Positions 5,343 through 63,085 of a stretch of 64,000 bases of DNA are shown piece after piece. Below the pieces are notes generated by a model, which did not search any database, had not been told where the DNA came from, and saw nothing but the letters and a program-made list of their open reading frames with translations. A program made the translations under genes and the position numbers. Every line of letters begins with the position of its first letter. Positions within the stretch are counted from its first letter, which is position 1. Origin of the DNA: Comamonadaceae bacterium OS-4. GTDB lineage: Bacteria; Pseudomonadota; Gammaproteobacteria; Burkholderiales; Burkholderiaceae_C. Location of the stretch: positions 248,001 through 312,000 of the forward strand of contig AP026970.1 in assembly GCA_027924025.1 (NCBI GenBank). The letters are read 5' to 3'.

Positions 5343-6512
5343 ATGTTGCCCCTGCCCGCCGCCATCCAGCCCTTTGTTGACCAGATCCGTGCCGCCGCTG
5401 CGGACCAGACGCCTCTGCAGATTCGCGGTGGAGGCAGCAAAGACTTTTACGGTTGCCTCCAGCCCGCAGGCCTGCTGGACACCCGCAGCCTGAGCGGCGT
5501 GGTCGATTACGCGCCCAGCGAGCTGGTGGTCACGGTGGCCACAGGAACACCGCTCTCCACCCTCGAGGCCCTGCTGGCCGAGCAAGGCCAGTGTCTGCCC
5601 TTCGAGCCGCCGCACTACCAGTGGTCTACCCGCAGTGCCGGCGCCCCGGCGAGCACCGCCACCGTGGGTGGTTTGGTCGCCAGTGGTTTGGCCGGCCCCG
5701 CCCGTGCCAGCGTTGGCAGCGTGCGCGACTATGTGCTGGGCGTGAAACTCATCAACGGCCGCGGGGAGTACCTGACCTTCGGCGGCCAGGTTATGAAAAA
5801 CGTGGCCGGTTACGACGTGTCGCGCCTGATGGCAGGGGCCATGGGCACCCTGGGCCTGATGACCGAGGTCTCGCTCAAGGTGCTGCCCTTTGCTCCCGCC
5901 GAGGCCACGCTGGTGTTCCCGCTAGGGCAAGCCGCCGCCCTCGAGCAACTCCACCGCTGGGCCGGCGAACCCCTGCCCCTGAATGCCAGCTGTTGGGTGC
6001 ACGACGCGAGCGCGGGTGTGTCGGGGCAAGATTTGCTGTTTGTGCGACTGCGCGGAGCCGTGGCCGCCGTGGAAGCGGCCTGCCAGCGCATGTTGCGCGA
6101 GTTACCGGGCGAGCGCATGGACCCGGCGCAAGCCGCCGCCGATTGGGACCGTTGCCGCGACCAAACGCTGCCCTTCTTTACCGACGGTGCGGCCACCGGT
6201 CACGCCTTGTGGCGCTTGTCGGTGGCGCAAACCGCGCCAATGCTGGACTTGCCTTGGGCGCAGCTAATCGAGTGGCATGGCGGTGTGCGTTGGCTCTGGG
6301 CGCCGCTGCAAGCCGGGCCCCAATTGCAGACCGTGGCTCGCGCAGCCGGTGGTAATGCTATGGTTTTTGTAGCTGGAGGCGCAGACATTACCGGCGCCAA
6401 GTGCCAATTCCGCTCGGATGTTGCGGGGCAGGCCGCTTTGCTCAAACGCCTCAAGGCCGCGTTCGATCCGGCCGGTATCTTCAACGCTGGCAGGCTCTAC
6501 CCCGATTTCTGA
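5343..6512 (+). CDS. glcE: Glycolate oxidase FAD-binding subunit GlcE
   Basis: The 389-residue protein starts MLPLPAAIQPFVDQIRAAAA at 5343. The reading frame is open further upstream to 5100, but that part overlaps the lactonase and does not look like GlcE. PLQIRGGGSKDFYG and the GGLVASGLAGPARASVGSVRD region are the FAD-binding (PCMH-type) fold, and the C-terminus PAGIFNAGRLYPDF is typical of GlcD/GlcE. It forms the membrane-associated glycolate oxidase with GlcD and GlcF, oxidising glycolate to glyoxylate. glcF follows after 25 bp. glcD is not in this window. A copy of the 28-bp dispersed repeat lies inside the gene and encodes about AMVFVAGGA. Confidence 0.93.
   Translation: MLPLPAAIQPFVDQIRAAAADQTPLQIRGGGSKDFYGCLQPAGLLDTRSLSGVVDYAPSELVVTVATGTPLSTLEALLAEQGQCLPFEPPHYQWSTRSAGAPASTATVGGLVASGLAGPARASVGSVRDYVLGVKLINGRGEYLTFGGQVMKNVAGYDVSRLMAGAMGTLGLMTEVSLKVLPFAPAEATLVFPLGQAAALEQLHRWAGEPLPLNASCWVHDASAGVSGQDLLFVRLRGAVAAVEAACQRMLRELPGERMDPAQAAADWDRCRDQTLPFFTDGAATGHALWRLSVAQTAPMLDLPWAQLIEWHGGVRWLWAPLQAGPQLQTVARAAGGNAMVFVAGGADITGAKCQFRSDVAGQAALLKRLKAAFDPAGIFNAGRLYPDF
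6356..6383 (+). repeat. 28-bp dispersed repeat, copy 1 (inside glcE)
   Basis: TGCTAT-N7-GTAGCT-N4-GCGCA, in frame within glcE near its 3' end. It fits the fixed 6-7-6-4-5 layout seen in the other copies. Confidence 0.7.
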
Positions 6513-6537
6513 CGCCGGGCGCCACTCACCACCTCTT

Positions 6538-7779
6538 ATGCAGACCCAACTCGCCCCCGAATACCAAAACACCCCGGACGGTCAAGCCGCCGAGGCCATT
6601 CTGCGCAAATGTGTCCATTGCGGTTTTTGCACCGCGACGTGCCCGACCTACCAGCTGCTCGGTGATGAGCTCGATGGCCCGCGCGGCCGCATTTACCTGA
6701 TGAAGCAAGTGCTCGAAGGCCAGGAGCCCACGCGCGCCACCCAGATGCACCTCGACCGTTGTCTGACCTGCCGCAACTGCGAAAGCACCTGCCCCAGCGG
6801 GGTGGACTACGGCCATCTGGTCGACATTGGGCGCAAGCTGGTTGATGCCAAAGTGCCCCGGCCCGCGGGCGAAAAGGCCCTGCGCTGGGCGCTGAAAGAG
6901 GGGCTGCCTTCCCCCCTGTTTGCCCCCGCCATGAAGCTGGGCCAACTGGTGCGCCCGCTGCTGCCCCAAAGCCTGAAAAACAAAGTGCCCGCGCCGCAGG
7001 ATGCCGGCCAATGGCCCGACCGAGAGCACCCGCGCCAGGTGTTGATGCTGGCCGGTTGCGTGCAGCCCAGCATGTCGCCCAACATCAACAGCGCCACGGC
7101 CCGGGTGCTGGATGCGGCCGGGATCCAGCCCTTGCTGGCACCCGCTGCAGGGTGCTGCGGCGCAGTCAAATTCCACCTCAACGATCAAGACGGCGGCAAG
7201 GCGCAGATGCGCGCCAACATCGACGCCTGGTGGCCCTATGTGCTGGACGGCGTCGAGGCGCTGGTGATGAATGCTTCGGGTTGCGGTGTGACGGTCAAAG
7301 AGTACGGCCATATCCTGCGCGATGACCCTGCCTATGCCGCCAAGGCGGCGCGCATCAGCGCCCTCACACGCGACCTGAGCGAGCTGTTGCCCGAGTGCCT
7401 GCCGCGACTTCAACCCCTGGTCCGGCTGGATGCCAGCACCCCGGCGCTGGTGTTTCACCCGCCCTGCACCCTGCAGCACGGCCAGAAACTCAAAGGCGGG
7501 GTGGAGTCGCAGATGGCAGCGCTCGGGTTCTCAGTGCGGGTTGCCAGTAACGAGTCGCACCTGTGCTGTGGCTCGGCCGGCACCTACTCGGTGCTGAACC
7601 CCGAGATCTCTTACCAGCTGCGCGACCGCAAGCTGGGCCATCTGGCGCCGACCGACAACGAGGTCATCATCAGCGCCAACATCGGGTGCATCACCCATCT
7701 GCAAAGCGGCACCACCACCGCCGTGCGCCACTGGATCGAGGTTTTGGACGCCGCTTTGGCGCCTGCCAACCGGTCTTGA
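6538..7779 (+). CDS. glcF: Glycolate oxidase iron-sulfur subunit GlcF
   Basis: The 413-residue protein starts MQTQLAPEYQNTPDG at 6538, the usual GlcF N-terminus. Two 4Fe-4S motifs are visible: CVHCGFCTATCP (about residues 24-35) and CLTCRNCESTCP (about 75-86). Two CCG-type cysteine-rich domains follow (GCCGAVKFHLND and CCGSAGTYSVL), as in the LutA/GlcF family. It passes electrons from the GlcD/GlcE flavins to the quinone pool. It is cotranscribed with glcE. It ends 15 bp from the convergent peroxidase gene with no visible terminator between them. Confidence 0.94.
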   Translation: MQTQLAPEYQNTPDGQAAEAILRKCVHCGFCTATCPTYQLLGDELDGPRGRIYLMKQVLEGQEPTRATQMHLDRCLTCRNCESTCPSGVDYGHLVDIGRKLVDAKVPRPAGEKALRWALKEGLPSPLFAPAMKLGQLVRPLLPQSLKNKVPAPQDAGQWPDREHPRQVLMLAGCVQPSMSPNINSATARVLDAAGIQPLLAPAAGCCGAVKFHLNDQDGGKAQMRANIDAWWPYVLDGVEALVMNASGCGVTVKEYGHILRDDPAYAAKAARISALTRDLSELLPECLPRLQPLVRLDASTPALVFHPPCTLQHGQKLKGGVESQMAALGFSVRVASNESHLCCGSAGTYSVLNPEISYQLRDRKLGHLAPTDNEVIISANIGCITHLQSGTTTAVRHWIEVLDAALAPANRS

Positions 7780-7794
7780 GCCGACCCCGCTCCC

Positions 7795-8280
7795 TCAGGC
7801 TGCCAGTGCAGCCTCGATATCTTTGGCGAGGCTGGCAGGCGTGTCGGTCGGCGCATAGCGCTTGAGCACTTTGCCGTCTTTGCCCACCAGAAATTTGGTG
7901 AAGTTCCATTTGATGGCCTTGGTGCCCAGCAGGCCCGGTGCTTCTCCGGCCAGCCACTGGTACAGCGGGTGGGCGCCGCCCCCGTTGACCTCAATCTTGG
8001 CCATCATCGGGAAGCTCACGCCGTAGTTGAGTTGGCAAAAAGAAGAAATCTCGTCATTGCTGCCCTTGTCCTGTGCGCCGAATTGGTTGCACGGGAAACC
8101 CAGCACCACCAGTCCCTTGCCGCCGTACTCCTGGTGCAAAGCCTCCAGCCCGGCGAACTGCGGTGTGAAGCCGCAGGCACTGGCGGTGTTGACGATCAAT
8201 AGCGCTTTGCCTTTGAAATCGCCCAAGCCGATCAGCTGACCCTGGATGTTCAAGGCCTCGAAGTCATACACACTGCTCAT
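7795..8280 (-). CDS. Glutathione peroxidase (BtuE/GpxA type)
   Basis: The 161-residue protein starts MSSVYDFEALNIQGQ. The active-site motif NTASACGFT carries the peroxidatic Cys36 (cysteine, not selenocysteine), GFPCNQFG supplies the family signature and resolving region, and IKWNFTKFLV carries the conserved Trp and Asn. It reduces hydrogen or lipid peroxides in the cytosol, probably with thioredoxin as the reductant, as for most bacterial Cys-GPx. It stands alone, convergent with glcF; glycolate oxidation generates reactive oxygen, but a functional link is only suggestive. Confidence 0.93.
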   Translation of the reverse strand: MSSVYDFEALNIQGQLIGLGDFKGKALLIVNTASACGFTPQFAGLEALHQEYGGKGLVVLGFPCNQFGAQDKGSNDEISSFCQLNYGVSFPMMAKIEVNGGGAHPLYQWLAGEAPGLLGTKAIKWNFTKFLVGKDGKVLKRYAPTDTPASLAKDIEAALAA

Positions 8281-8380
8281 TCGCGTCTCCCAAGAAAGTG
8301 GGCTTCACCATAGCATTCCTTGCAAAAGCTTGTGTTGAGCGGGCATTGCTGGGAAGATTTGCAAAACGAGGAGTTCAGGA

Positions 8381-9607: not shown

Positions 9608-9631
9608 CGGCTGCCGCCAGAGGGGCTGGGT

Positions 9632-10915: not shown

Positions 10916-10932
10916 GGGTAGGTTCTGGGCAC

Positions 10933-10947
10933 ATTAGCGGGGCTAAT
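10933..10947. promoter_or_regulatory. Perfect inverted repeat in the lplT/alr divergent gap
   Basis: ATTAGC-GGG-GCTAAT is a perfect 6-3-6 palindrome 18 bp upstream of the lplT start codon. It could be an operator controlling lplT or the divergent pair. No regulator is identified. Confidence 0.35.
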
Positions 10948-11041
10948 GCGCGGAATATTGTTGTGGGTCTCCAAGCGTGCGACGGTTATAGCACGGCGTG
11001 GAATGTCAAAATCATTGCGGTCCCTTGTTGTTACCCACTCT

Positions 11042-12136
11042 ATGCCACGTCCTATCCAAGCCACCATTCATGTTCAGGCCCTGCGTCATAACTTGGAGGT
11101 GTGCCGCCGCGCGGCGCCGGATGCCCGCATCTGGGCAGTGGTCAAGGCCAACGCGTACGGGCACGGCATTGAACGCGCTTTTGACGGTTTGCGCGGCGCA
11201 GACGGCATTGCACTCCTGGACCTGGACGAGGCCCAGCGGGTACGCAGCTTGGGCTGGCGCGGACCTATCCTGTTGCTGGAGGGCGTGTTTGAGCAGCGCG
11301 ACCTGGAGCTGTGCTCCCGCCTCGGCCTGTGGCACACGGTGCACTGCCAGGAGCAGATCGACATGCTGGCCATCCACAAAACCAACGAGCCGCACCGGGT
11401 GTTTCTCAAGGTCAACTCCGGCATGAACCGCTTGGGCTTTCAGCCCGAACAGGTGCGGTCTGCGTGGACCCGCCTGAATGCCTTGCCGCAGGTGGACGAG
11501 ATTTCGCTCATGACCCACTTCAGCGACGCTGACGGTCCCAAGGGCATTGCCGGTCAGATGGCGGTGTTTAAACAAGCCACCGATGACCTGCCTGGCGAGC
11601 GCACGGTCAGCAACAGTGCGGCCACCTTGCGGCATTCGGGCTCCGGCCTGGTATCCGACTGGGTGCGCGCCGGCATTGCCACCTACGGCAGCGCGCCGGA
11701 CTACCCCGAGCACGACATCGCCCACTGGGGCTTGCAGCCCACCATGACGCTTGCTGCAAAAATCATAGCTACTCGCGCACTATCGGCGGGCGATACGGTC
11801 GGATACGGCTCTCATTTCACCGCAGACAAGCCGATGCGCATCGGCGTGGTGGCTTGCGGCTATGCCGACGGCTACCCCCGCATCTGCCCCACCGGCACTC
11901 CGGTGCTGATCAACGGGGTGCGCAGCCGTGTCGTGGGCCGGGTCAGCATGGACATGATCACCGTCGACCTTGACCCGGTGCCCCAGGCTGGCATGGGTTC
12001 CGAGGTCACCCTGTGGGGGCGCGCAGCCAACGGCGCGGTGCTGCCGATTGACGAAATTGCGGCCGCTGCCGGCACCGTGGGCTATGAATTGATGTGCGCG
12101 CTCGCGCAGCGGGTACCGGTCGTCGTGGCAGACTAG
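11042..12136 (+). CDS. alr: Alanine racemase
   Basis: The 364-residue protein starts [17 protein letters not shown] at 11042; the frame is open upstream to 10946 but that part is not Alr-like. The PLP-binding lysine is Lys35 in [12 protein letters not shown], and the second catalytic base is Tyr255 in [18 protein letters not shown] is a conserved substrate-site motif. It interconverts L- and D-alanine for peptidoglycan synthesis in the cytosol. A 28-bp dispersed repeat lies inside the gene and encodes about AAKIIATRA, directly before the Tyr255 motif, without disturbing the fold length. The next gene begins 6 bp after the stop. Confidence 0.95.
11752..11779 (+). repeat. 28-bp dispersed repeat, copy 2 (inside alr)
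   Basis: TGCTGC-N7-ATAGCT-N4-GCGCA. It is in frame within alr about 25 bases before the codon for catalytic Tyr255. One half of the palindrome has two mismatches. Confidence 0.7.
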
Positions 12137-12141
12137 CCTCC

Positions 12142-13353: not shown

Positions 13354-15954
13354 TCACCCGGCCAGGGCCGCCGGGTGCTGCCGGCCGGCCCACTTCAGGC
13401 CGGCGCAGGCCAGCAGGGTGAGCCCCACCAAACCTGCGCACACCGCCCATTGCTCGGCATTCAGGGCGGCAAATGCGGCCAGCTTCTGTATCCACGGCAC
13501 ATACACCATGGCCAGCAGCACGCCCAGTGCTACCGCGCACACGCCCCACAACACTCCATTGGGCCGCAGCAGCCAGGCGCGCGGGTTCAGCTGGGTGCTG
13601 CGGTTCATAAAGATCAGGCTCAGGTTGACCAGCAGCAGGGTGGCAAACGCCAGCGTGCGCGCATGCTCGGGGCTGGCGTGGGCCAAGCCCCAAGCCATGG
13701 CACCCATGACCGCCATCAGGCCGACCACGCCCTGGGCCAGTGCCTGCCAGAGCGTGCCACGGTTCAGCAAAGCCGCCTTCACATCGCGCGGGGGCTGTTG
13801 CATCCCGTTTTTCTCGGCGGGTTCGTTTTCAAACACCATGGAGCAAGCCGGGTCGATCACCAGTTCCAGAAAGGCAATGTGCAACGGGAACAAGGCTGTC
13901 GGCCAACCCAGCAGCACCGGCAGCAGCGCCATGCCGGCAATCGGCACATGCACCGCCAGCACATAGGCCATGGACTTGCGCACATTGTCGAAAATGCGCC
14001 GGCCCAGCCGCACCGCTGCAGTGATAGACGCAAAGTTGTCGTCCAGCAGCACCAGCGCGGCAGACTCGCGGGCCACATCGGTGCCGCGTTGACCCATGGC
14101 AATGCCCACGTGAGCCGCTTTGAGGGCAGGGGCGTCGTTCACACCGTCGCCGGTCATGGCCACGATCTGCCCTTCGGCCTGCAAGGCCTGCACGATGCGC
14201 AGCTTTTGCACCGGCGCTACCCGGGCGCACACCCGGGTGTGGCGCATGCGCTCGCGCAAGGCTGCGTCGTCCAGGGTGTCGATGTCGTCGCCACTGAGCA
14301 CTTCATCGGCCGCCGAGTTACCCGGCCCTGTGGCTGCGGTGAGGATGCCCGCGTGTTTTGCGATGGCAGTGGCCGTGCCCGGGTGGTCGCCGGTGATCAT
14401 CACCACCCGGATACCTGCCTGCAAACACTCCGCCACCGAGTCGGCAATACCAAGGCGCAGCGGGTCTTCCAGCCCGATGAGGCCGAGCAAGGTGAAGTCG
14501 AAATCGTGCTCCTGCCCCGGCAGGGTGATGGTGCCCGCCGCACCCGGCACTCGGCTGGAGGCCACGCCCAGCACCCGCAGTCCCTGGTCGGCCAGAAAAG
14601 TGGCCGCCGCTTGGGCACGGGCCAACTCGGCAGGCGGCAGGTGGCACAGGTCGAACACCGCTTCGGGCGCGCCCTTGGCGGCCACGATGTGGGCATCGCC
14701 GTCATCGGCCGTCCACACATGCGACATGGCGCGCAGCTGGGGGCTCAGGCCGTATTCGCGCACCAGGGTCCAGTCGCGGTGCAGGTGCTCGGTGTCTTGC
14801 AAGGTCTGGGCGCCCAGCCGGTGAAAGGCTTGTTCCATCGGGTCAAACGGCTCCTCCACACTGGCCAGAATGGCGTACTCGGCCACGCGGTGAAACGCCT
14901 CCGGCAGCGCGTGGGGTTCGCCGTCAGGAAGGGCCAGTGTTTGATCTGCTGCCGTGCCACCATAGGCAAACAAGGCGGCCACCCGCATGCGGTTTTCGGT
15001 CAGGGTGCCCGTCTTGTCGACACACAGCACCGAGGTCGCCCCCAGGGTTTCAATCGCGGCCAGGCGGCGGGTCAGCACCTGCTGCTTGGCGAGCCGCCAG
15101 GCGCCCAATGCTGGCAGTACCGTGAGGATGACGGTGAACTCCTGCGGCAGCAAGGCCATGGCCAGCGCGATGCCTGAGAGCAGGGCGGCGGTCCAGTTGC
15201 CGTGCATCAGTCCACTGGCCAATATCAGCAGCAAGCTGGCAGCAAACGCCAACACCGCCAGGCGTTTGACCAGCACGGTTGTTTGTTGCTTGAGCGGCGA
15301 GTCTTCCGGGCCCAGCCCGTCCAATGCGCTGCCGATGCGCCCCATGGCCGACGCCGCGCCGGTGTGCTCCACCCGCGCCAGCCCGTGGCCGCGCACCAGC
15401 AGGGTGCCGCCGAAGAGCGCGGCGTCGCCCCCGCTGGCGGCCTTTTCAACGGGCACCGATTCGCCGCTGAGCATGGATTCGTCCGCCATCACATCGCTGC
15501 CGTTCAAGAGCGTCGCATCCGCGGCCACCCGGTCGCCCTCGGCCAGCACCAGCACATCGCCGGGCACCACGGTGCTGCCCGGCACGGCTTGGGCCTTGCC
15601 GTCGCGCAGCACCTGGGCTTGCGGGCTGGCGAGTTGGCGCAGGGCCTGCATGGCGTGTTCGGTTTTGCCCTCCTGGTAGAGCGTGAGCGCCACGACCATG
15701 ACCACCAAGCCCAGCAGAATGCCGCCCTCCTGCCAGTCGCCCAGCAGTCCGTAGAGCACGGCAGCACCCAGCAGCAGCAAAAACATGGGCTCGGTCAGCG
15801 TCTCGCGGGCGATGGCGGTCCAGCGCCGTGAGCCGGCGCCGGGCAGTGCGTTGGAGCCGTGGGTGGCCAGCAACTGGGCGGCTTGCGCGCTGCTTAGGCC
15901 TTGGGGGGCAGTGCTGTCGGCAACAGATGCCGTTGTTTCAGGTGAAATTGGCAT
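13354..15954 (-). CDS. P-type cation-transporting ATPase, substrate unknown
   Basis: The 866-residue protein starts MPISPETTASVADS at 15954; the frame is open 59 codons further upstream, but that part contains a copy of the dispersed repeat and is not ATPase-like. Visible motifs are MLSGES (161-166, actuator), DKTGTLTE with phosphorylated Asp313, MITGDHPGT, and TGDGVNDAPALKAAHVGIAMG. The M4 ion-binding region reads LLPQEFTV instead of the PEGLP of Ca-ATPases. The C-terminal region has FLELVIDPACSMVFENEP. The layout is P2-like (Ca/Mg-type, no heavy-metal domain). The unusual M4 motif prevents a confident ion assignment. No regulator or partner is adjacent. Confidence 0.88.
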   Translation of the reverse strand: MPISPETTASVADSTAPQGLSSAQAAQLLATHGSNALPGAGSRRWTAIARETLTEPMFLLLLGAAVLYGLLGDWQEGGILLGLVVMVVALTLYQEGKTEHAMQALRQLASPQAQVLRDGKAQAVPGSTVVPGDVLVLAEGDRVAADATLLNGSDVMADESMLSGESVPVEKAASGGDAALFGGTLLVRGHGLARVEHTGAASAMGRIGSALDGLGPEDSPLKQQTTVLVKRLAVLAFAASLLLILASGLMHGNWTAALLSGIALAMALLPQEFTVILTVLPALGAWRLAKQQVLTRRLAAIETLGATSVLCVDKTGTLTENRMRVAALFAYGGTAADQTLALPDGEPHALPEAFHRVAEYAILASVEEPFDPMEQAFHRLGAQTLQDTEHLHRDWTLVREYGLSPQLRAMSHVWTADDGDAHIVAAKGAPEAVFDLCHLPPAELARAQAAATFLADQGLRVLGVASSRVPGAAGTITLPGQEHDFDFTLLGLIGLEDPLRLGIADSVAECLQAGIRVVMITGDHPGTATAIAKHAGILTAATGPGNSAADEVLSGDDIDTLDDAALRERMRHTRVCARVAPVQKLRIVQALQAEGQIVAMTGDGVNDAPALKAAHVGIAMGQRGTDVARESAALVLLDDNFASITAAVRLGRRIFDNVRKSMAYVLAVHVPIAGMALLPVLLGWPTALFPLHIAFLELVIDPACSMVFENEPAEKNGMQQPPRDVKAALLNRGTLWQALAQGVVGLMAVMGAMAWGLAHASPEHARTLAFATLLLVNLSLIFMNRSTQLNPRAWLLRPNGVLWGVCAVALGVLLAMVYVPWIQKLAAFAALNAEQWAVCAGLVGLTLLACAGLKWAGRQHPAALAG

Positions 15955-15971
15955 GTAGCCCTTGTGAAATA

Positions 15972-15999
15972 TGCGTGAGCAGCTCCTGATTTGGTAGCA
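15972..15999 (-). repeat. 28-bp dispersed repeat, copy 3
   Basis: On the minus strand TGCTAC-N7-GGAGCT-N4-ACGCA, a slightly decayed copy just upstream of the P-type ATPase start codon. Confidence 0.6.
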
Positions 16000-16075
16000 A
16001 GCTCTTGGGGCACTTCTCACCATGCTAGAGATGCAGGGCGTTGCCGTCTGTGATCTGGCGCATGGTCTGCGCAGT

Positions 16076-16104: not shown

Positions 16105-16111
16105 TCCCGCC

Positions 16112-18322: not shown

Positions 18323-18349
18323 GTTGTGCCCCTTCGCAAAGGAAGAACT

Positions 18350-18877
18350 ATGAAAAACAAGCCCCTGGTGCCCGTCCTATATGCGCGAGCAGCTATGAAA
18401 TGGATAGCAATTGTGCTGCTGGCTGGCGCTGGCCTGGCGCGCGCAGACAGCCTGCAGCGGGTCCCTCCGCTGCCGAAATACCAGCAGGAGTGCGCCGCCT
18501 GCCACTTGGCGTATCCGCCCGGCCTGTTGCCCGCTGCGTATTGGAAGCGACTCATGGGCTCGCTGGATAAACACTACGGCACCGATGCGTCGCTCGATGA
18601 AGCCAGTGTGCGCGAGATCAGTGGCTGGCTGCAAACCCATGCGGGTACCTACAAGCGGGTGTCCGAAGAGCCACCGCAAGACCGCATCACCCGCTCGCAG
18701 TGGTTTGTGCGCAAGCACAGCGAGGTGGATCCGCAAATCTGGAAGCAGGCGGCCGTCAAAAGTGCCGCCAATTGCGCGGCGTGCCACACCGCGGCCGACA
18801 AAGGCAGCTTCCGCGAATCTGAAATCCAATTTCCCAAAGGCCTGGACGCGCGCTTTCGCCGCAACTGGTCCGATTGA
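18350..18877 (+). CDS. Diheme cytochrome c (DHC)
   Basis: The 175-residue protein starts at 18350 after a good AGGAAG site. Two heme motifs CAACH are at about 48-52 and 142-146, the first in ECAACHLAYPPGLLP, which is typical of DHC. The export signal ends near LARAD. A 28-bp dispersed repeat in the minus orientation encodes part of the signal peptide, around YARAAMKWIA; a secondary ATG inside it (18395) would still give an exported protein. DHC transfers electrons between the membrane cytochrome b encoded next and SHP encoded before it. Confidence 0.88.
   Translation: MKNKPLVPVLYARAAMKWIAIVLLAGAGLARADSLQRVPPLPKYQQECAACHLAYPPGLLPAAYWKRLMGSLDKHYGTDASLDEASVREISGWLQTHAGTYKRVSEEPPQDRITRSQWFVRKHSEVDPQIWKQAAVKSAANCAACHTAADKGSFRESEIQFPKGLDARFRRNWSD
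18382..18409 (-). repeat. 28-bp dispersed repeat, copy 4 (in DHC signal sequence)
   Basis: On the minus strand TGCTAT-N7-ATAGCT-N4-GCGCA, a perfect match to the consensus. It lies inside the 5' end of the diheme cytochrome gene. Confidence 0.8.
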
Positions 18878-23488: not shown

Positions 23489-24529
23489 GTGCAGATGGCC
23501 CCAAGCCAGGCGGCCACCGGCCGCTTCGGTGGGGAGTCATTGATCATCGCTCCCCAATGGATCGGGGATGCGGTGATGACCGAGCCCTTGCTGCGCCGGT
23601 TGGCGGCGCGGGGTGAGCGCATCACGGTGGCTGCGGTGCCGTGGGTGGCACCGGTGTACCGCGCTATGCCCCAGGTGGCAGAGGTGCTGGTCTTGCCCTT
23701 CGCGCGTGGCGGCGTCCAGTGGACTGCGCGCCGTGCCTATGCGGCCGGTTTGCGGGGGCGATTCAAACGGGCCTATGTGTGCCCCAACTCCCTCAAAAGT
23801 GCGCTGATCCCTTTCTGGGCCGGCATCCCTGCGCGCGTGGGCTACTCGGGTGAGCTGCGTTTCGGGCTGCTGAACCGCCGCCTGCCCAATCCTCCCCAAA
23901 ACAGCCGCCCGCCCATGGTGGCGTTTTACTCTGCCTTGAGTGGCGAAACCGGCGTGGACCACGACCGGCCGGCCCTGCAGGTCGCACTTGACGCGATTGC
24001 GGCGGTGCTCGCGCCGCGCGGCTTGCACGCGCAAGGTTTTTATGTGGTGGCACCGGGCGCAGAGTACGGCCCGGCCAAGCGCTGGCCGGCAGCCCATTTC
24101 GCTGCCATGGCCGCGGGGCTGGCGCAGCCGGTGTTGTTGCTGGGCTCGGCCAAGGATGATGCGGTGTGCACTGAGATTGCAGAGGCGGTCAATGCCCTGC
24201 GCCCGGGCCATTGTGTGAATCTGGCCGGGCGCACCAGCCTGGACGAAGCGGTGGCGCTGATTGCCGGCGCGCACGCCATGGTGAGCAACGACTCGGGCCT
24301 CATGCATGTGGCGGCTGCATTCGGGGTGCCGCAGGTGGCGATCTTCGGATCGTCCAGTCCGCTGCACACGCCGCCGCTGAATCCGGCGGCCACGGTCCTG
24401 TGGCTGAAGAACGACCCCGCCTACCAACCGCCGCTGGATTGCGCGCCGTGCTTCAAGCGGGAGTGTCCGCTGGGGCACACACGCTGCCTGAACGACATCA
24501 CTCCGGATAAGGTGCTATCGATTTTGTAG
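23489..24529 (+). CDS. waaF: Lipopolysaccharide heptosyltransferase II
   Basis: The 346-residue protein begins at GTG 23489 (AGG 9 bp upstream), with ATG 23495 as the alternative. Glycosyltransferase family 9 motifs: SLIIAPQWIGDAVMTEPLL near the N-terminus, VVAPGAEYGPAKRWPAAHFA, and MVSNDSGLMHVAAAFGVPQV with the conserved SNDSGLMH. The closing LDCAPCFKRECPLGHTRCL is typical of WaaF. It adds the second heptose to the inner core of LPS. The last codons and the stop codon are provided by a copy of the 28-bp repeat. Confidence 0.92.
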   Translation: MQMAPSQAATGRFGGESLIIAPQWIGDAVMTEPLLRRLAARGERITVAAVPWVAPVYRAMPQVAEVLVLPFARGGVQWTARRAYAAGLRGRFKRAYVCPNSLKSALIPFWAGIPARVGYSGELRFGLLNRRLPNPPQNSRPPMVAFYSALSGETGVDHDRPALQVALDAIAAVLAPRGLHAQGFYVVAPGAEYGPAKRWPAAHFAAMAAGLAQPVLLLGSAKDDAVCTEIAEAVNALRPGHCVNLAGRTSLDEAVALIAGAHAMVSNDSGLMHVAAAFGVPQVAIFGSSSPLHTPPLNPAATVLWLKNDPAYQPPLDCAPCFKRECPLGHTRCLNDITPDKVLSIL

Positions 24530-24540
24530 CTGCCTGCGCA
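24513..24540 (+). repeat. 28-bp dispersed repeat, copy 5 (contains waaF stop)
   Basis: TGCTAT-N7-GTAGCT-N4-GCGCA. The TAG inside the second palindrome arm is the waaF stop codon. Confidence 0.75.
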
Positions 24541-24577
24541 TATTCTGCGAGGGATATCGCTTGATTTGGCACAAAAA

Positions 24578-31780: not shown

Positions 31781-31853
31781 GCCCGCAGTCTAGCGGTGAC
31801 CATCCCTGCCCAGATGCGGCTGGCTTGAAGATTCCGTAAAGTTGGGTAAATTT

Positions 31854-31881
31854 TGCTATTAAATATATAGCATCAGGCGCT
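31854..31881 (+). repeat. 28-bp dispersed repeat, copy 6
   Basis: TGCTAT-N7-ATAGCA-N4-GCGCT. It lies between the response regulator and ampG genes; the two arms are a perfect palindrome. Confidence 0.75.
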
Positions 31882-31884
31882 TGT

Positions 31885-33228
31885 CTAATGGGGGCTAGGG
31901 GTCGATTGGATGCGTGATGCCAAGGCGATCAGCACCAGCACTGGCAGCCCGATGCAGGCAGTACCCACGAAAAACGGGGTGTACCCGATCGCATTGACCA
32001 CATCGCCCGAGAAGCCGGCCAGAAACTTGGGCAGCAACACCATCATGGAGCTGAACAGCGCATATTGGGTTGCCGAGTATTGGATGTTGGTGAGTGAGGA
32101 CAGGTAGGCCACAAACGCCGCAGTCGCAATGCCGCTGGAGAAGTTGTCGGCCGAGATCACCGCCATCAAGGCGTGCAGGTCGTGCCCGCGGGTGCCCAGC
32201 CAGGCAAACAGCAGGTTGCTACCGGCGCTCAGCACCGCGCCCAGCATCAAGACTTTGAGCACGCCCATGCGCAGCGCCAGCGCACCGCCGACAAAGGCGC
32301 CGACCAGCGTCATGATGACGCCATAGACCTTGGTGATCGCCGCAACCTCGCCCTTGGTGTAGCCCATGTCCACGTAAAACGGGTTGGCCATGATGCCCAT
32401 GACCACATCGCTGATGCGGTAGGTAGCAATCAAGGACAAGATCAACACTGCATGCCAGCGGTGGCGCCGCACAAACTCGGCGAAGGGTTCCATCAGCGCA
32501 CTTTGCAGCCATTCACCGGCGTTGCGGGCCGGACGCAGAGGCGCGGGTGCGGGTTCTTTGGACAAGAGCACCACCAACATGCCCGGCAGCATGCTCATGG
32601 CCATGACCAGGTAAGCGGTGCGCCAGGCCGCATATTGATAGAGGTCGGCGCTGGGGGTTTCGTTGGCCGCTGCAATCCAGAGGGCACCTGCGCCCGCCCA
32701 GATCATGGCCAGGCGGTAACCCGCCATGTAGGTGGCAGAAAGTGCGGCTTGGTGCTGGCTGTCGCCGGATTCGATGCGAAAGGCATCCAGCGCAATATCC
32801 TGGGTTGCCGAGGCAAAAGCCAAGGCAATCGCGCACCACACCACCGGGGTCAAGGCGTTGCGCGGGTCGGTCAGGGCCATGGTGCAGAGTGCCGCCATGA
32901 TGGCAGTTTGCGCCACGAGCAGCCAGCTGCGACGGCGGCCGAGTGCAGCGGTGAGCAGAGGAATCGGCAAGCGGTCCACCAAGGGAGCCCACGCCCACTT
33001 GAAGCCGAAGGCGATGCCGACCCAGCTCATGTGGCCAATGGTGCTGCGGTCGACGCCAGCTTCGCGCAACCAGAAGCTCAAGGTCCCGAATACCAGCAAG
33101 AAGGGCAGTCCCGCCGAAAAGCCCAGCGCTAGCATGCGCAGCGAGGCGGGTTCTGCATAGACTTTGAGCATGTCCCGCCAATGGGATTTGTCGGCGGTAG
33201 CGGGGGTGTCGGGCGTTAGGGAACTCAT
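31885..33228 (-). CDS. ampG: AmpG-type muropeptide permease (MFS)
   Basis: The 447-residue protein starts MSSLTPDTPATADKSHW at 33228; 63 further upstream in-frame codons overlap the divergent protease gene and are ignored. Twelve to fourteen membrane segments are present with AmpG-family motifs: GFSAGLPFLLVFGTLSFWLREAG split by the first helix turn, GFKWAWAPLVDRLP, and ASATQDIALDAFRIE. It imports GlcNAc-anhydroMurNAc peptides for cell-wall recycling. It is divergent from the M48 peptidase gene with only about 40 bp between the start codons. Confidence 0.88.
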   Translation of the reverse strand: MSSLTPDTPATADKSHWRDMLKVYAEPASLRMLALGFSAGLPFLLVFGTLSFWLREAGVDRSTIGHMSWVGIAFGFKWAWAPLVDRLPIPLLTAALGRRRSWLLVAQTAIMAALCTMALTDPRNALTPVVWCAIALAFASATQDIALDAFRIESGDSQHQAALSATYMAGYRLAMIWAGAGALWIAAANETPSADLYQYAAWRTAYLVMAMSMLPGMLVVLLSKEPAPAPLRPARNAGEWLQSALMEPFAEFVRRHRWHAVLILSLIATYRISDVVMGIMANPFYVDMGYTKGEVAAITKVYGVIMTLVGAFVGGALALRMGVLKVLMLGAVLSAGSNLLFAWLGTRGHDLHALMAVISADNFSSGIATAAFVAYLSSLTNIQYSATQYALFSSMMVLLPKFLAGFSGDVVNAIGYTPFFVGTACIGLPVLVLIALASRIQSTPSPH

Positions 33229-45910: not shown

Positions 45911-45945
45911 GCGGGGGATTGTCGCATTCGCAGATGGGTGGCTTC

Positions 45946-45973
45946 TGCTATAAAAGTAATAGCAATATGCGCA
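45946..45973 (+). repeat. 28-bp dispersed repeat, copy 7
   Basis: TGCTAT-N7-ATAGCA-N4-GCGCA. It lies in the 5' leader of the TauE-type permease gene; the arms are a perfect palindrome. Confidence 0.78.
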
Positions 45974-46012
45974 GGTTCCACCTGCGCCATAGGCTAATTG
46001 GGGTGCAAATAA

Positions 46013-53023: not shown

Positions 53024-53718
53024 GGGTTCTGAATAATGAGAATGGTTTTGCTATGAAAAAAATAGCTGCTCGCGCAGGTATTGATTGGGCTAGAGCCTCA
53101 TTGGGCTTGATTGTTGTTGTGGCGCTGGGCGCCTGCTCTGCGCCGCGTGGGGTGACCACGGCGGTGTATGACTTCGGCCCGGGCGTGGTGGAGCCGCAGC
53201 CGCAGAACCGCATGGCGCCCTTGCCCTTGTTGGTGATGGCCGATGTGCAGGCCCCGCTGGCCCTGGAGGGCGCAGCGGTGCTCTACCGGCTCAACTACAC
53301 CGATGGCCAGCTGTTGCGCCCCTATGCCCAAGCCCGCTGGAGCATGCCGCCGGCGCAGCTACTGCGCCAGCAACTGCGGGCTGCCCTGAGCGCACAGCGC
53401 CCGGTCCTGAATGCGAACGAAGGCGGCCCCAGCCCAGCCGGGGCGCTGGTGTTGCGCATGGAGCTCGAAGAGTTCAGCCAGTTGTTTGACAGTCCGCAGG
53501 CCAGCCGCGGCGTGCTGCGGATGCGGGCGACCCTGCTGCGGGCCAGTCCAGGTGGCGAAAGCCTGGTGGCCCAGCGCACCGTGGTTGCCAGCAGCCCCGC
53601 GCCCACCCCCGATGCGGCCGGTGGCGTGCGCGCCTTGACCGTGGCGGCCCAGTCCGCGATCACTCAGCTCGACGACTGGGTGCAGCAAACCCAGGCCGCC
53701 TTGCCCACCACCCCCTGA
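53020..53718 (+). CDS. ABC-type transport auxiliary lipoprotein
   Basis: Up to 232 residues. The ATG at 53020 overlaps the MCE gene stop; a second ATG at 53053 gives 221 residues. The lipoprotein signal ends at VVVALGAC, with lipidated Cys. The rest (PLLVMADVQAPLALEGAAVLYRLNY and a Ser/Thr-rich core) matches the PqiC/ABC_trans_aux family. It is an outer- or inner-membrane lipoprotein that supports the MCE system. A 28-bp repeat encodes most of the n-region (KIAARAG...) of the signal peptide. Confidence 0.83.
   Translation: MRVLNNENGFAMKKIAARAGIDWARASLGLIVVVALGACSAPRGVTTAVYDFGPGVVEPQPQNRMAPLPLLVMADVQAPLALEGAAVLYRLNYTDGQLLRPYAQARWSMPPAQLLRQQLRAALSAQRPVLNANEGGPSPAGALVLRMELEEFSQLFDSPQASRGVLRMRATLLRASPGGESLVAQRTVVASSPAPTPDAAGGVRALTVAAQSAITQLDDWVQQTQAALPTTP
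53049..53076 (+). repeat. 28-bp dispersed repeat, copy 8 (in lipoprotein signal sequence)
   Basis: TGCTAT-N7-ATAGCT-N4-GCGCA, a perfect consensus match that contains the in-frame ATG at 53053 and encodes the start of the signal peptide. Confidence 0.82.
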
Positions 53719-53734
53719 ACCCCCGGGCGATGCC

Positions 53735-54385: not shown

Positions 54386-54401
54386 GCTTGCCAGATGCCG
54401 C

Positions 54402-55037: not shown

Positions 55038-55157
55038 AGCTCGGTCCGGTTGGTGCTGCCGGGAGCGGCAGAGGCACGGATAGTAATGCACCCGGGCGGT
55101 GCGCGCATCGGTAAAACCTGCTACACCTGTAATCCATTCTTTGGGGGACCGCGCACG

Positions 55158-56066: not shown

Positions 56067-56077
56067 GACAGGTGCAG

Positions 56078-56824: not shown

Positions 56825-56916
56825 GGGGCCCATGGTAAAGCGCGAGCCGTTTTTTGGCTTACGCTAGTGGCTTACTGCCGCAACGACGGTATTCAATGGT
56901 CAGCCCAGAGGACTTT

Positions 56917-57903: not shown

Positions 57904-57915
57904 ACAGAGCACGCC

Positions 57916-58614: not shown

Positions 58615-58643
58615 CGAGTGGGGCGCCGGTGCCCTAAACCAGG

Positions 58644-59768
58644 CTACCGGTTGGTGCGCGCGAGGTAGCGTTTGCGCCAGAAGACGAGGGCCAATGCAGC
58701 CGCCGTCAGGCCCATCGCCCCCAAAATCCACCAGAAGCCACCTTGCTGGTGGAGCAGGGGGATGAAGTCGAAGTTCATCCCGAAAATACCTGCCATCAAA
58801 TTCAGCGGCAAAAAGATAGCGGTCAGCACCGTGAGCGTGCGCATGATGTCGTTGGTGCGGCTGCCTTGCACACTGAAGTGCATCTGCACGGCAGTCTCCA
58901 CGCTTTGCTCCAAGCGGCGCACATGGTGGACTACCCGCTCAATGTGCTCCAGCACATCGCGGCTGCGCACCTCCAGCAGCTCGCGCTCGCGGGCATCGGC
59001 GGGGCCCGTAGTCTCCGGCCAGGTCTTGATGGCCTCTATCCAATCCTGAATGCTGGAGCGCTGCTCTTCGCACACATCATCGAGCTGGTGCAAAGCCATG
59101 CGGGCCTCCAGCAGGGAGGTCCAGTTGGTGAAGCGGGTGCGGGGGCTCAAGAGCTCGTTTTGCCAGTGGTCGAGCTGTTGTGTGAGTTCGCGGCGCAGCG
59201 CGAGGTAGCCATCCACCATCGAGTTCACGATGCGCAGCATCAAGTCGGCGGGGCTGGTGGGCTGGCGGGCCCCTGCGGCGCGCGGCTCGGCGGCGGCAGC
59301 GGTCTGCAGCAGTTTGTCGGCATAGGCATCGCGCACGGTGCAGTCGTCGGGGTGCACAGAGAGCAGCACGTTGTCAAACACCGCAAACCCGACCGGGCTG
59401 GTGTCGATGCGTCGCAAGATGGGCGGGCCGCTCAAGCGCGGCGGGGTGCCTTCTGCCTTGGGCGCATTCAGGGGCAGGGTGCCGGTGCTGCCGGCGACCA
59501 GGCGCCTGAACACCAGCAGGTCGTATTGGGAGGTGTAGTCGTAGTGCGACGGCAGCTGCTTGTTGATCAGGTCGGAGATGTGCAGATCGACCAGCTGCTC
59601 GCCGCACAGGTGTTGCAGGGCGGCTTGGACGCGCGCCTGCTCTGCTTCAAATTCGGGGCGGCTGCAGGCAATCCACACATAGCCCGAGCCTTTCAGGTCA
59701 GCGGCATAGAGCTGCCCTAAATCTGCGCTTTCACGGACATGGCCGGGCTCAATGTGGAAGATGCGCAT
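58644..59768 (-). CDS. zntB: CorA-family cation transporter (ZntB-like)
   Basis: The 374-residue protein starts MRIFHIEPGHVRESADLGQ. A cytosolic funnel with coiled helices (to about residue 300) is followed by two membrane helices and the pore motif GMNFDFIP, the family's GMN signature; the loop LLHQQGGFWW and a basic tail (FWRKRYLAR) follow. ZntB-like by its length and divergent N-terminus; transport of zinc (or Mg/Co) is family knowledge. The N-terminal part is about 45 residues longer than E. coli ZntB. Confidence 0.83.
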   Translation of the reverse strand: MRIFHIEPGHVRESADLGQLYAADLKGSGYVWIACSRPEFEAEQARVQAALQHLCGEQLVDLHISDLINKQLPSHYDYTSQYDLLVFRRLVAGSTGTLPLNAPKAEGTPPRLSGPPILRRIDTSPVGFAVFDNVLLSVHPDDCTVRDAYADKLLQTAAAAEPRAAGARQPTSPADLMLRIVNSMVDGYLALRRELTQQLDHWQNELLSPRTRFTNWTSLLEARMALHQLDDVCEEQRSSIQDWIEAIKTWPETTGPADARERELLEVRSRDVLEHIERVVHHVRRLEQSVETAVQMHFSVQGSRTNDIMRTLTVLTAIFLPLNLMAGIFGMNFDFIPLLHQQGGFWWILGAMGLTAAALALVFWRKRYLARTNR

Positions 59769-59812
59769 GGCTTCAGTATGAATTAAAAAGTGCCGCTGGC
59801 GCAGATAGGTTG

Positions 59813-59840
59813 TGCGCCAGCAGCTCTTATTTTTATAGCA
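59813..59840 (-). repeat. 28-bp dispersed repeat, copy 9 (abuts hemB stop)
   Basis: On the minus strand TGCTAT-N7-AGAGCT-N4-GCGCA. It begins immediately after the hemB TAA stop codon. Confidence 0.75.
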
Positions 59841-60920
<1,080 letters not shown>

Positions 60921-60953
60921 TCAGCGAATTGGAGGGGTATTGCCCGAAATTGC

Positions 60954-60982
60954 TTGTCACACCACCGCAACATTGCTAAATT
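60954..60982 (+). promoter_or_regulatory. Promoter of the candidate small RNA
   Basis: A -35 element TTGTCA (60954-60959) and a -10 element TAAATT (60977-60982) are 17 bp apart. Transcription would start at about 60989. Confidence 0.5.
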
Positions 60983-60988
60983 CAACCC

Positions 60989-61088
60989 CGGGTAGCTTGC
61001 TATCCCCCGCTTTTCCTCCCTGAGCGGGGCCTTGATGTGTGACAGCAAAAAAGGCTTACCACCCCAGCCGTGTGCTGGGGTTTTTTTT
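60989..61088 (+). ncRNA. Candidate three-stem small RNA with CCUCC loop
   Basis: Three consecutive hairpins: GGGTAG/CTATCC with loop CTTG (60990-61005), CCCCGCT/AGCGGGG (61005-61029) whose 11-nt loop displays CCTCC, and the terminator CCCCAGC/GCTGGGG (61062-61080) with eight Ts. A promoter precedes it. CCUCC in a loop can pair with Shine-Dalgarno sequences, as in known anti-SD riboregulators of other proteobacteria. It matches no family I recognise (not 6S, 4.5S, tmRNA or RNase P). It could alternatively be only the hemJ leader ending in a terminator. Confidence 0.5.
61062..61088 (+). terminator. Rho-independent terminator before hemJ
   Basis: CCCCAGC-CGTGT-GCTGGGG followed by a run of eight T. 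It ends the candidate small RNA 39 bp before the hemJ start. Confidence 0.88.
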
Positions 61089-61126
61089 GCCCGTAGCAAA
61101 CGCAACCGTCCCGCTACACTTTGGTC

Positions 61127-61555
61127 ATGCTCTGGATCAAAGCCTTTCACATTGTTTTCATCGCCAGCTGGTTTGCCGGCCTGTTTTATCTTCCCCGCAT
61201 CTTTGTGAACTTGGCCATGGTGCCAGCCGGCTCAGATGCCGAGCGAGCCCGTCTGTTGCTGATGGCACGCAAATTGTTGCGGTTCACCACCCTGTTGGCT
61301 GTGCCAGCCTTGGGGCTGGGCCTGTATCTTTGGTTGGGTTATGGCATCGGGCGTGGGCCGGGCAATGGCTGGATGCACGCCAAGCTGGCCTTGGTGCTGC
61401 TGGCCATCGGCTACCACCACGGATGTGCGGTGATGTTGCGCAAGTTGGAAGCCGGCCTGAGCCAGCGCAGCCATGTGTTTTTCCGGTGGTTCAACGAGAT
61501 CCCGGTGTTGTTGCTGACCGCAATTGTTGTTTTGGTGGTGGTCAAGCCGTTCTGA
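61127..61555 (+). CDS. hemJ: HemJ-type protoporphyrinogen IX oxidase
   Basis: The 142-residue membrane protein starts MLWIKAFHIVFIASWFAGLF at 61127. Four helices; the conserved heme-binding His in KAFHIVFIASW and Lys/His in HAKLALVLLAIGYHHG match HemJ (UPF0093). It oxidises protoporphyrinogen IX, the step after those fed by HemB; placement beside hemB supports the call. VanZ-like gene follows after 12 bp. Confidence 0.9.
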   Translation: MLWIKAFHIVFIASWFAGLFYLPRIFVNLAMVPAGSDAERARLLLMARKLLRFTTLLAVPALGLGLYLWLGYGIGRGPGNGWMHAKLALVLLAIGYHHGCAVMLRKLEAGLSQRSHVFFRWFNEIPVLLLTAIVVLVVVKPF

Positions 61556-61567
61556 CGGTATCGAACC

Positions 61568-62662
61568 GTGCACAAATCCACCGCATGGCCACTTGCCGCT
61601 CTGTACGCGGCACTGGTCGCGTATGCGAGTTTGTTTCCCTTTGTAGAGTGGCGCGACCAGGGGATTGCCAGCTGGGAGTTTTTGCTGGCTCCCCTGCCCC
61701 GGTATTGGACCGGTTTTGATGTCGCCATCAACATTGCAGGCTATGTGCCCTTAGGGGGGCTGGTCGTTCTTGGCGCTTTGCGCTCGGGGTGGCCCCGTAT
61801 CTCCGTGTGGCTGGCGCCGCTGGGGGTCATGCTGCTGTCGCTGCTGATGGAGGCCTTGCAGAGCTATTTGCCTTTGCGGGTGCCCTCTCGGGAAGACTTC
61901 CTGTTGAATTCACTGGGTGCTGCCTGCGGCGCCGCCATCGCTTTTGTGTTGCAAAGGGCCGGTGCCATCGATCGGTGGAACCAAGTGCGCAGCCGCTGGT
62001 TTGTGTCGCATTCCCGCGGCGGAATTGTGCTGCTCTCGACATGGCCCCTGGGTCTGTTGTTCCCGTCCTCGGTGCCTTTGGGCTTGGGTCAGGTGGTGAC
62101 CCGGGTAGAGGAGATGCTGCGCAGTGCGCTACTGGACTCTGAGTTTGAACGCTGGTTGCCCGAGGGGCCTACGGAATGGCCTGCCTTGGCTCCGAGTACA
62201 GAGTTGCTATGCGTTGCGTTGGGTTTGCTAATTCCTTGCCTGTTGGGTTTTTGTATTGTGCGGGCCCGGTGGCGACGCGTAGTGGTGGTGGTGGTGACAG
62301 CTACGTCGGCCGTGTTGGCCACCGCTTTGTCGGCCGCCTTGAGCTGGGGCCCCGGCCATGCCTGGGCTTGGCTGGATTTGCCGACGCAAATCGGCATGCT
62401 GGCGGGGGCTGGCTTGGCGTTGTTGCTGGTACTGGTGTCATGGCGCGTCAGTGCGGCCGTGGCACTGTTGGCGCTGGGGGTCTATTTAAGTCTGTTGAAT
62501 CAAGCGCCAGAAAGTCCGTACTTCGCACAGACCCTCCAGTTGTGGGAGCAGGGGCGGTTTATCCGGTTCAATGGTCTGGCGCAATGGGTGGGGTGGCTCT
62601 GGCCTTATGCGGCGTCCTTGTATCTTCTGGGGCAAATCGCGCGCAGAGATACTAAAACCTAA
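61568..62662 (+). CDS. VanZ-like family membrane protein
   Basis: The 364-residue protein starts at a GTG (61568) with MHKSTAWPLAALYAAL. The first half is VanZ-like: LVAYASLFPFVEWRD, DVAINIAGYVPLGGLVV, LMEALQSYLPLRVPSREDFLLNS with the Glu and acidic/Arg cluster. The rest adds four or more membrane helices. VanZ-family function is unclear (teicoplanin-related in enterococci; otherwise cell-envelope). It sits between hemJ and a ferredoxin gene. Confidence 0.83.
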   Translation: MHKSTAWPLAALYAALVAYASLFPFVEWRDQGIASWEFLLAPLPRYWTGFDVAINIAGYVPLGGLVVLGALRSGWPRISVWLAPLGVMLLSLLMEALQSYLPLRVPSREDFLLNSLGAACGAAIAFVLQRAGAIDRWNQVRSRWFVSHSRGGIVLLSTWPLGLLFPSSVPLGLGQVVTRVEEMLRSALLDSEFERWLPEGPTEWPALAPSTELLCVALGLLIPCLLGFCIVRARWRRVVVVVVTATSAVLATALSAALSWGPGHAWAWLDLPTQIGMLAGAGLALLLVLVSWRVSAAVALLALGVYLSLLNQAPESPYFAQTLQLWEQGRFIRFNGLAQWVGWLWPYAASLYLLGQIARRDTKT

Positions 62663-62671
62663 AATCAGCGC

Positions 62672-63022
62672 ATGACTGATTCCACCACTCCCGCCCCCTC
62701 CTATTACGAACGCCATATTTTCTTTTGCCTGAACGAGCGAAAGAACGGCGAAGACTGTTGTGTGCACCACAACGCCCAAGAGGGTTTTGACAAGTGCAAG
62801 CAACTTGTCAAAGAAGCTGGACTGGCGGGCCCCGGCAAAGTCCGTGTCAACAAAGCGGGCTGCTTGGACCGCTGTGCCGGTGGCCCGGTGGCGGTGGTGT
62901 ATCCCGAAGCGGTTTGGTACTCGTTTGTGGACGGGCAGGATATCGAAGAGATTGTGGAGTCGCACCTTAAGAACGGCAAAGTCGTTGAGCGACTGCTGAC
63001 ACCCGCCCACTTGGGCCGCTGA
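62672..63022 (+). CDS. Thioredoxin-like [2Fe-2S] ferredoxin
   Basis: The 116-residue protein starts MTDSTTPAPSYYERHIFFC. Four Cys are placed as in shethna/Aquifex-type 2Fe-2S ferredoxins: FFCLNERKNGEDCC early and GCLDRCAGGPVAVVYP later, with the C-x-D-x-C-x-GP loop. WYSFVDGQDIEEIVESHL ends the fold. A soluble electron carrier of unknown partner; the short gap to the VanZ gene suggests one transcript with hemJ. Confidence 0.9.
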   Translation: MTDSTTPAPSYYERHIFFCLNERKNGEDCCVHHNAQEGFDKCKQLVKEAGLAGPGKVRVNKAGCLDRCAGGPVAVVYPEAVWYSFVDGQDIEEIVESHLKNGKVVERLLTPAHLGR

Positions 63023-63066
63023 TTGTCGCGTATTCGCTAGTTGGCGCTCTCATCTCTTGCGGGTGC

Positions 63067-63085
63067 CGCTATAAAAATAATAGCA
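63067..63085 (+). repeat. 28-bp dispersed repeat, partial copy 10
   Basis: CGCTAT-N7-ATAGCA, the palindromic half only; the N4-GCGCA tail is absent. It forms the leader directly in front of the alpha/beta hydrolase ATG (63088). Confidence 0.55.

Follow-up and report, generated by a model that had tools for sequence, protein, structure and literature searches.

Short palindromic repeats scattered over a bacterial chromosome raise the questions of how they were spread and why they are maintained. Both are posed by the stretch of DNA analysed here, a window of 64,000 nucleotides from Comamonadaceae bacterium OS-4 (positions 248,001 to 312,000 of contig AP026970.1, assembly GCA_027924025.1; the genome is referred to as G000). 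A preliminary description of this window listed ten copies of a 28-bp element, TGCTAT-N7-ATAGCT-N4-GCGCA, and likened it to repetitive extragenic palindromes (REPs) or miniature inverted-repeat transposable elements (MITEs). We provide a characterization of this element and of the REP-associated tyrosine transposase (RAYT) gene found in the same genome. We read the element as a REP-type family, not described before, that is linked to a RAYT of the terminal inverted repeat (TIR)-flanked class, and consider it probable that the repeat was spread by the RAYT long ago, is now immobile, and has a core kept by selection for a host role.

Architecture and abundance of the element

With up to three mismatches allowed, the 28-bp pattern matches the window nine times against 0.11 expected, a number reached in none of 100 shuffles. 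All ten listed copies exist and have the fixed spacing attributed to them: nine are pattern matches, and the minus-strand copy at 15972, which carries four mismatches and is missed at this threshold, scores 55 bits when 74 other copies of the same genome are used to build a weight matrix. The copy at 63067, taken for a partial one, proved to be a full minus-strand copy (63058-63085, 2 mismatches), and the complementary arms, first given as 6 bp, are 5 bp long (GCTAT/ATAGC), since T stands opposite T at the outermost position. The suspicion that the bases following GCGCA form part of the element was well founded, since aligned copies add about 30 more, up to GCGCTAGAGGCC-NN-ATTT. In these alignments conservation spans about -3 to +54, and the element, of roughly 60 bp, has the consensus TGCTAY-N7-RKAGCTGCTNGCGCA-N10-GCGCTAGAGGCC-NN-ATTT. 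It includes two palindromic parts, GCTAT...ATAGC and CTNGCGCA...TGCGCYAG; the palindromic core originally described is only the first of these, and is followed by a hairpin rich in GC. The tetranucleotide of 66 sampled copies is ATAG in 36, GTAG in 11, GGAG in 8, AGAG in 6 and another sequence in 5.

The stem is clear in the consensus, yet decayed in most window copies; when folded as DNA, two of the ten (45943..46008 and 59778..59843) surpass every one of 200 shuffles. When lineages are compared, a change in one arm tends to be accompanied by a change in the other, and 78 of 100 core cells are paired against a shuffle mean of 70.3 (78 was reached in 16 of 5000 shuffles), slid versions of the test giving 13-49 paired cells. 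Each of 25 genomes, this genome and 24 of the 33 with matches, contributed a single copy to the set, which was picked by hand so as to drop matches that were not element-like or were located at the RAYT. Examples of co-changed arms are GCGC/GCGC, CAGC/GCTG in G346 and GCCC/GGGC in L137. Two subfamilies can be distinguished in this genome at column 39, GCGCTAG and GGGCTAG; 53 of 89 copies have the G-C and 33 the G-G combination, the GGGCTAG form leaving a mismatch in the stem.

The genome comprises 4,068,203 bases in two contigs, a chromosome of 3.76 Mb and a second contig of 305 kb. Sampling of 444 kb (19 stretches of 20 kb and the window) gave 60-67 matrix matches, depending on the cut-off (28 to 8 bits), and the reversed sequence gave none. 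The 66 copies above 12 bits correspond to one per 6.7 kb, which extrapolates to about 560 on the chromosome, in agreement with the hundreds per genome predicted at the outset; a scan of the whole genome with at most one mismatch found 162 pattern matches and none for a reversed control pattern. Five stretches of the second replicon (100 kb) held no copy where about 15 would be expected at chromosomal density. The element is also present in related bacteria: at least one core match occurs in 93 of 299 family genomes (141 genera), and the exact core was matched in eight stretches of a viral collection (a match count alone). Two additional candidate repeats were dropped, both lying inside ordinary open reading frames (ORFs).

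Simple in-house gene calls, in which 89% of the sequence is coding, place 42 of 81 copies in 544 kb between genes, 11 across gene ends and 28 within predicted genes, so that 53/81 are at least partly extragenic compared to 11% of non-coding sequence. Neighbouring genes are convergent for 14 copies, divergent for 6 and co-directional for 32, and orientation relative to the co-directional genes is 16:16. A strand bias of the copies of the related genome G006 was considered and rejected (15 to 15 in 187 kb). The hairpin consensus, the enrichment outside genes and the 14 convergent and 6 divergent contexts are in keeping with an element acting at the RNA level as a terminator or as a processing or stability hairpin. 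To this we attach very little probability: orientation to co-directional genes is even, many copies lie within genes, the stems are decayed in most window copies and no T-run follows the stem.

The RAYT gene and its adjacent element copy

The RAYT gene that the preliminary description proposed to look for is present as a single Y1_Tnp match, encoding 230 amino acids (aa) and carrying a degenerate element copy at its 3′ end. The protein matches NF047646 (REP-associated tyrosine transposase) at 40.5 bits, below the cut-off of 80. The predicted model of its 94%-identical orthologue L098 (predicted local distance difference test score 88) has TnpAREP, 4er8, as best solved match and includes three C-terminal helices (166-179, 183-195 and 202-210); no Pfam helix-turn-helix match was found in eight RAYT proteins. 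The nearest named records are from metagenome-assembled genomes of Comamonadaceae (94%) and Rhodoferax (74%), and the bacterium is probably Rhodoferax-like. In the same genus, 34 of 37 genomes have a RAYT match at E <=1.3e-59, G002 has weak matches only, and G010 and G030 have none. In general, the gene is single-copy and syntenic, with two matches each in G002, G007, G011 and G014. A motif of gltB type lies at most 1.5 kb downstream at 29/30 same-genus and 54/80 named loci. The RAYT flanks carry GGGGACAG or GGGGTCAG motifs, fitting GGGGWSAS terminal repeats. Inspection of individual flanks found inverted GGGGACAG/CTGTCCCC on both sides of the gene in element-poor relatives such as L062, and on the 3′ side only in this genome.

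In element-rich genomes, an element in reverse orientation follows the RAYT stop codon, and its outer arm merges with the motif of the terminal repeat. The resulting half-site, GCTMY-N5..9-ATRTG-nCCC after the stop codon, is found in 13/13 same-genus genomes with at least three element matches and in 0/17 with two or fewer, the cut at three having been set after the table was seen; the element-bearing G002, G024, G030 and G032 have no RAYT flank to read and stand outside the 13/13 count. Among the 299 family genomes, a strict half-site with an AT-rich spacer occurs in 37, and at least three element matches are present in 30 of these against 44 of the 262 others. It adjoins the RAYT in all six genomes for which both positions are known (G000, G006, G075, G124, G180 and G321), and several of the 18 element-bearing genomes read at the RAYT show a variant copy where the strict half-site is missing. 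A second conserved block, GGAATCTGACCCCAATTA, is located downstream of the RAYT and before gltB (L062, L073 and other flanks); in L073 the whole block, including the half-site, is duplicated in tandem.

The RAYT-adjacent copy was compared with dispersed copies in eight genomes, with 2-4 dispersed copies for each one outside the own clade, and matches the local hairpin variant in three genomes. It is closest to the dispersed copies of its own genome in G008 (0.81) and G298 (0.80) and weakly so in G033 (0.63); in G091 it ties with a sister genome (0.72). At the RAYT of G298 (L179, 1358-1470) two elements overlap head to head with a common inner palindrome in a REPIN-like arrangement. A copy fused to the terminal repeat of a RAYT suggests how a REP could arise.

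The element would then be of REP type, composed of a CTAY arm, N7, an RKAG tetranucleotide (mostly ATAG) and a GC-rich hairpin, and the gltB-linked RAYT would once have dispersed it, probably in single-stranded form. Modelled on proposals for REP and IS200/IS605 sequences, CTAY may be the cleavage site and RKAG the guide. We infer recognition and movement by the RAYT, these two roles, and a role for the host to which we return below. That the element behaves like a REP and was spread by the RAYT is the most likely interpretation, and the REP part of the initial comparison is sustained by the copy number, the palindromic consensus and the RAYT gene with its degenerate copy.

A number of observations weigh against this interpretation. 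G030 (69 matches) is without a RAYT match and G002 (38) has weak ones, which speaks against a strict need for the RAYT unless these two drafts miss the gene. The RAYTs of G267 (153 core matches) and G346 (25) have no adjacent copy, no stretch beside the RAYT of G321 or G145 is more than 0.42 similar to dispersed copies, and the RAYT-adjacent copies of G000 and G006 are degenerate and not nearest to their own genome. The association of strict half-site and elements in the family (Fisher p 9e-15) is uncorrected for shared ancestry; it is weaker among named loci 8 kb or longer, where elements accompany the strict half-site in 18/25 versus 17/45 (p 0.012). In the element itself, ATAG and not GTAG dominates the tetranucleotide position (36 vs 11 of 66), eight of the ten window copies, with decayed stems, fold not clearly better than shuffles, the hairpin arms do not covary within this genome (89 copies), and the between-lineage covariation is modest in each column, none being strong alone. 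Strict REP membership is held back because of ATAG in place of GTAG, the decayed stems and a recognition that we infer.

Purifying selection acts on the RAYT even though the catalytic tyrosine has disappeared from several relatives. Of 128 aligned RAYTs, which are not all from distinct genomes (the L053 and L098 genes are identical), 115 have Y in the column aligned to Tyr115 of TnpAREP and the others have F (6), S (5) or A (2); HuH is altered in 3/128. The 13 otherwise open genes with F, S or A at this position, column 119 of the RAYT, are L054, L055, L056, L069, L078, L079, L099, L113, L158, L159, L175, L192 and L195. Phenylalanine occupies the catalytic column in G006, G033, G028 and the Rhodoferax locus L099; in PMC8266576, Y115F is the catalytic mutant used. 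The tyrosine is kept in G000, G019 and G029, but with HA where the class has NP, and Tyr-less RAYTs are also found in the element-poor genomes G005, G013 and G017. The ratio of nonsynonymous to synonymous divergence (dN/dS) is 0.035-0.22, and 0.11-0.21 between F-bearing genes; the gene is therefore kept with or without the nucleophile.

Fixed sites and conserved core bases

Comparison of orthologous sites, likewise proposed in the preliminary description, finds nearly all mappable sites occupied in related species. G019 covers ten window copies and shares nine, and G029 covers six and shares five, the copy at 59813 being a clean absence of 68 bp in both with CT at both junctions. In longer syntenic stretches (184 kb of G000, 187 kb of G006 and 180 kb of G033), 29 distinct copies of G000 score above 10 bits, and their mappable sites are occupied 24/24 in G006 and 24/25 in G033 (26/26 and 26/27 before two weak matches, opposite-strand echoes of other copies, were discounted). 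Above 25 bits the counts are 20/20 and 19/20, and those of the other four directions 26/27, 29/29, 23/24 and 24/25. The synonymous divergence (dS) of the RAYT between these three species is 1.4-2.0 (rough at saturation). The single G033 absence is a wider intergenic loss. No target-site duplication was definable at the two absences read base by base (68 bp with CT junctions only, and the wider loss); with this and the common sites, the MITE part of the initial comparison is not supported.

Orthologous copies have an N7 identity of 0.71-0.73, against 0.41-0.43 for non-orthologous ones (0/2000 permutations; 20, 20 and 27 pairs with both copies above 25 bits). Orthologues keep their own N7, and the copies are therefore old and have not been rewritten; rewriting from a master copy in G000, G006 and G033 was rejected on this ground. 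The N7, alike on both strands, fits a palindromic consensus, NAAWTTN. At site 45946, the 17-bp inner palindrome has been inverted in place between G006 and G033 (16/17 reversed, 8/17 forward). Loop inversion as a general process was rejected: the 27 G006-G033 pairs give one clear and one weak case (14/17 vs 11/17), and none of the 20 G000-G006 and 20 G000-G033 pairs passes the test.

The high copy number, the 68-bp absence with its CT junctions and the one clear inversion would be compatible with a REP or MITE-like element that still inserts and excises today. We consider this very improbable, since nearly all mappable sites are common between species, orthologous copies keep their own N7, no strong copy of G019, G029, G006 or G033 was found outside the window sites in the stretches fetched, and the catalytic tyrosine is gone from several relatives. 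In this lineage movement seems to have come to an end, and the element would today occupy fixed sites with no detectable movement.

Not all parts of the element change at the same rate. At orthologous sites the 20 most conserved columns show an identity of 0.88-0.93, the flanks (60 bases each side) 0.73-0.82, the N7 0.70-0.76 and the remainder of the element 0.64-0.70. Identity is higher in the core than in the flanks for 18/20, 17/19, 24/26, 28/29, 20/23 and 21/24 elements in the six directions; targets were not chosen by score but queries were, so that some pull to the consensus remains in these counts. The best-kept bases over 67 pairs are GCTA, AGC, GCGC, G-GC and TT. Copies at the same places in relatives with their key bases kept suggest usefulness to the host. 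Selection may keep the core bases because they serve the host, in the simplest case by being bound by a protein, either the RAYT or a different one; the RAYT is the first candidate for a protein reading the element sites.

Such conservation at fixed sites would also fit a host DNA site without any past dependence on a RAYT (the target of a chromosome-organising protein, for instance), the RAYT-side copy and the correlation being due to shared ancestry. The even orientation to co-directional genes fits this explanation, as do the confinement of copies to the chromosome (none in 100 kb of the second replicon) and the element-bearing genomes without a RAYT or an adjacent copy. We nevertheless hold it to be unlikely: the half-site is joined to the RAYT terminal repeat at a fixed place across genera and carries the local variant in three genomes, an RKAG tetranucleotide beside a palindrome is the plan of REP sequences, and about a third of the copies lie within genes (28/81). 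A REP system that has turned into host machinery is a tentative possibility, in which the RAYT would be a selected DNA-binding protein with its active site lost or crippled, and the fixed copies would be under selection as sites acting across the chromosome (in its organisation, replication or repair), with some also exapted as signal-peptide or other protein-coding codons. Our preferred reading remains a REP-type repeat once spread by the RAYT. It bears on why bacteria retain single-copy RAYTs and their repeats; the family permits site-by-site comparison across species, its movement appears to have ended, its core bases are retained and purifying selection on the transposase gene persists even where the catalytic tyrosine has gone, and a role other than transposition is thus directly testable.

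Copies in the window and comparison with known systems

The window copies are collected below. The ORF names (glcE-, alr-, lipoprotein-, hemB- and corA-like) and the signal-peptide calls come from our reading of the translations.

Element copies in the window, with weight-matrix scores, context and occupation of the site in related genomes
Feature	Position	Strand	Bits	Context	Related genomes
Element copy	6353..6418	+	48	in frame within glcE-like ORF	same position in G019, G006, G033
Element copy	11749..11814	+	38	in frame within alr-like ORF	kept in G019, G029, G006, G033
Element copy	15937..16002	-	55	GGAG tetranucleotide, 4 mismatches	common to G019, G029
Element copy	18347..18412	-	59	complement reads as signal-peptide-like codons	common to G019, G006, G033
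Element copy	24510..24575	+	58		common to G019, G029, G006
Element copy	31851..31916	+	53		common to G019, G029
Element copy	45943..46008	+	58		common to G019, G029, G006, G033
Element copy	53046..53111	+	67	start codon and signal-peptide codons of lipoprotein-like ORF	same site in G019, G006, G033
Element copy	59778..59843	-	63	68 bp absent in G019, G029	present in G006, G033
Element copy	63023..63088	-	42	abuts opposite-strand ATG	common to G019, G006, G033

The two in-frame copies (alr-like and glcE-like ORFs) and the two signal-peptide copies (18382 and 53049) are retained in G006 and G033. The latter two supply the signal-peptide codons of two ORFs, a place kept in other species, and the start codons of both ORFs arise within or beside the inner palindrome. 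The copy at 59778..59843 sits between two minus-strand ORFs, 59841-60899 (hemB-like) and 58644-59768 (corA-like). Just upstream of the hemB-like ORF, Rfam RF02837 'anti-hemB' (Burkholderia RNA 7) matches 61003-61088 (+) with 57.9 bits, the gathering score being 49.5.

The literature searched, mostly without subscription papers and including passages of PMC2817692, PMC3116915, PMC8049555 and PMC2755013, held no prior description of the element. The Bordetella/betaproteobacterial repeat BRE is likewise a dispersed repeat of related bacteria, reported in several Comamonadaceae and partly within genes; according to PMC3110155, it measures about 90 bp with 69% GC in Bordetella, is in tandem at some loci and has at most 29 copies per genome (4 in Rhodoferax ferrireducens). 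That our element is a form of BRE is extremely unlikely on size, GC content, tandem loci and copy number (162 near-exact matches here), a comparison made with the description and not the letters of BRE.

IS200/IS605 elements share the Y1 transposase fold, and their pairing of guide tetranucleotide and cleavage site would be paralleled by CTAY and RKAG; unlike them, no autonomous transposon was seen here and the RAYT is usually single-copy and syntenic. In Pseudomonas, REPINs are also numerous short repeats ascribed to one RAYT, whereas the present copies are not normally inverted pairs, the overlapping pair at the G298 RAYT being the one noted. With REP/RAYT systems (REPtrons) the element has in common a short palindrome next to a conserved tetranucleotide, dispersal in what extrapolates to hundreds of copies, and a usually single-copy RAYT that is flanked by a copy and whose HUH fold is nearest to TnpAREP 4er8. 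It differs in having mostly ATAG, not GTAG, and an additional CTAY arm, complementary and always 7 bases away, in the subclass of its RAYT, in its sites common between species, and in the loss of the catalytic tyrosine in some relatives.

By its length of about 230 aa, its C-terminal extension and its flanks of GGGGWSAS type (GGGGACAG, GGGGTCAG), this RAYT resembles the TIRYT proteins, or TnpAREP subclass 2.1. PMC3733652 gives GGGGWSAS terminal repeats for 'TIRYT' genes, and PMC6006769 equates TIRYT with subclass 2.1 and reports that no REP-like sequence was found near those genes. Here, in contrast, the terminal repeat is fused to a REP-like copy of a dispersed element, and REP-like repeats would now be assigned to a RAYT subclass for which that published survey had none.

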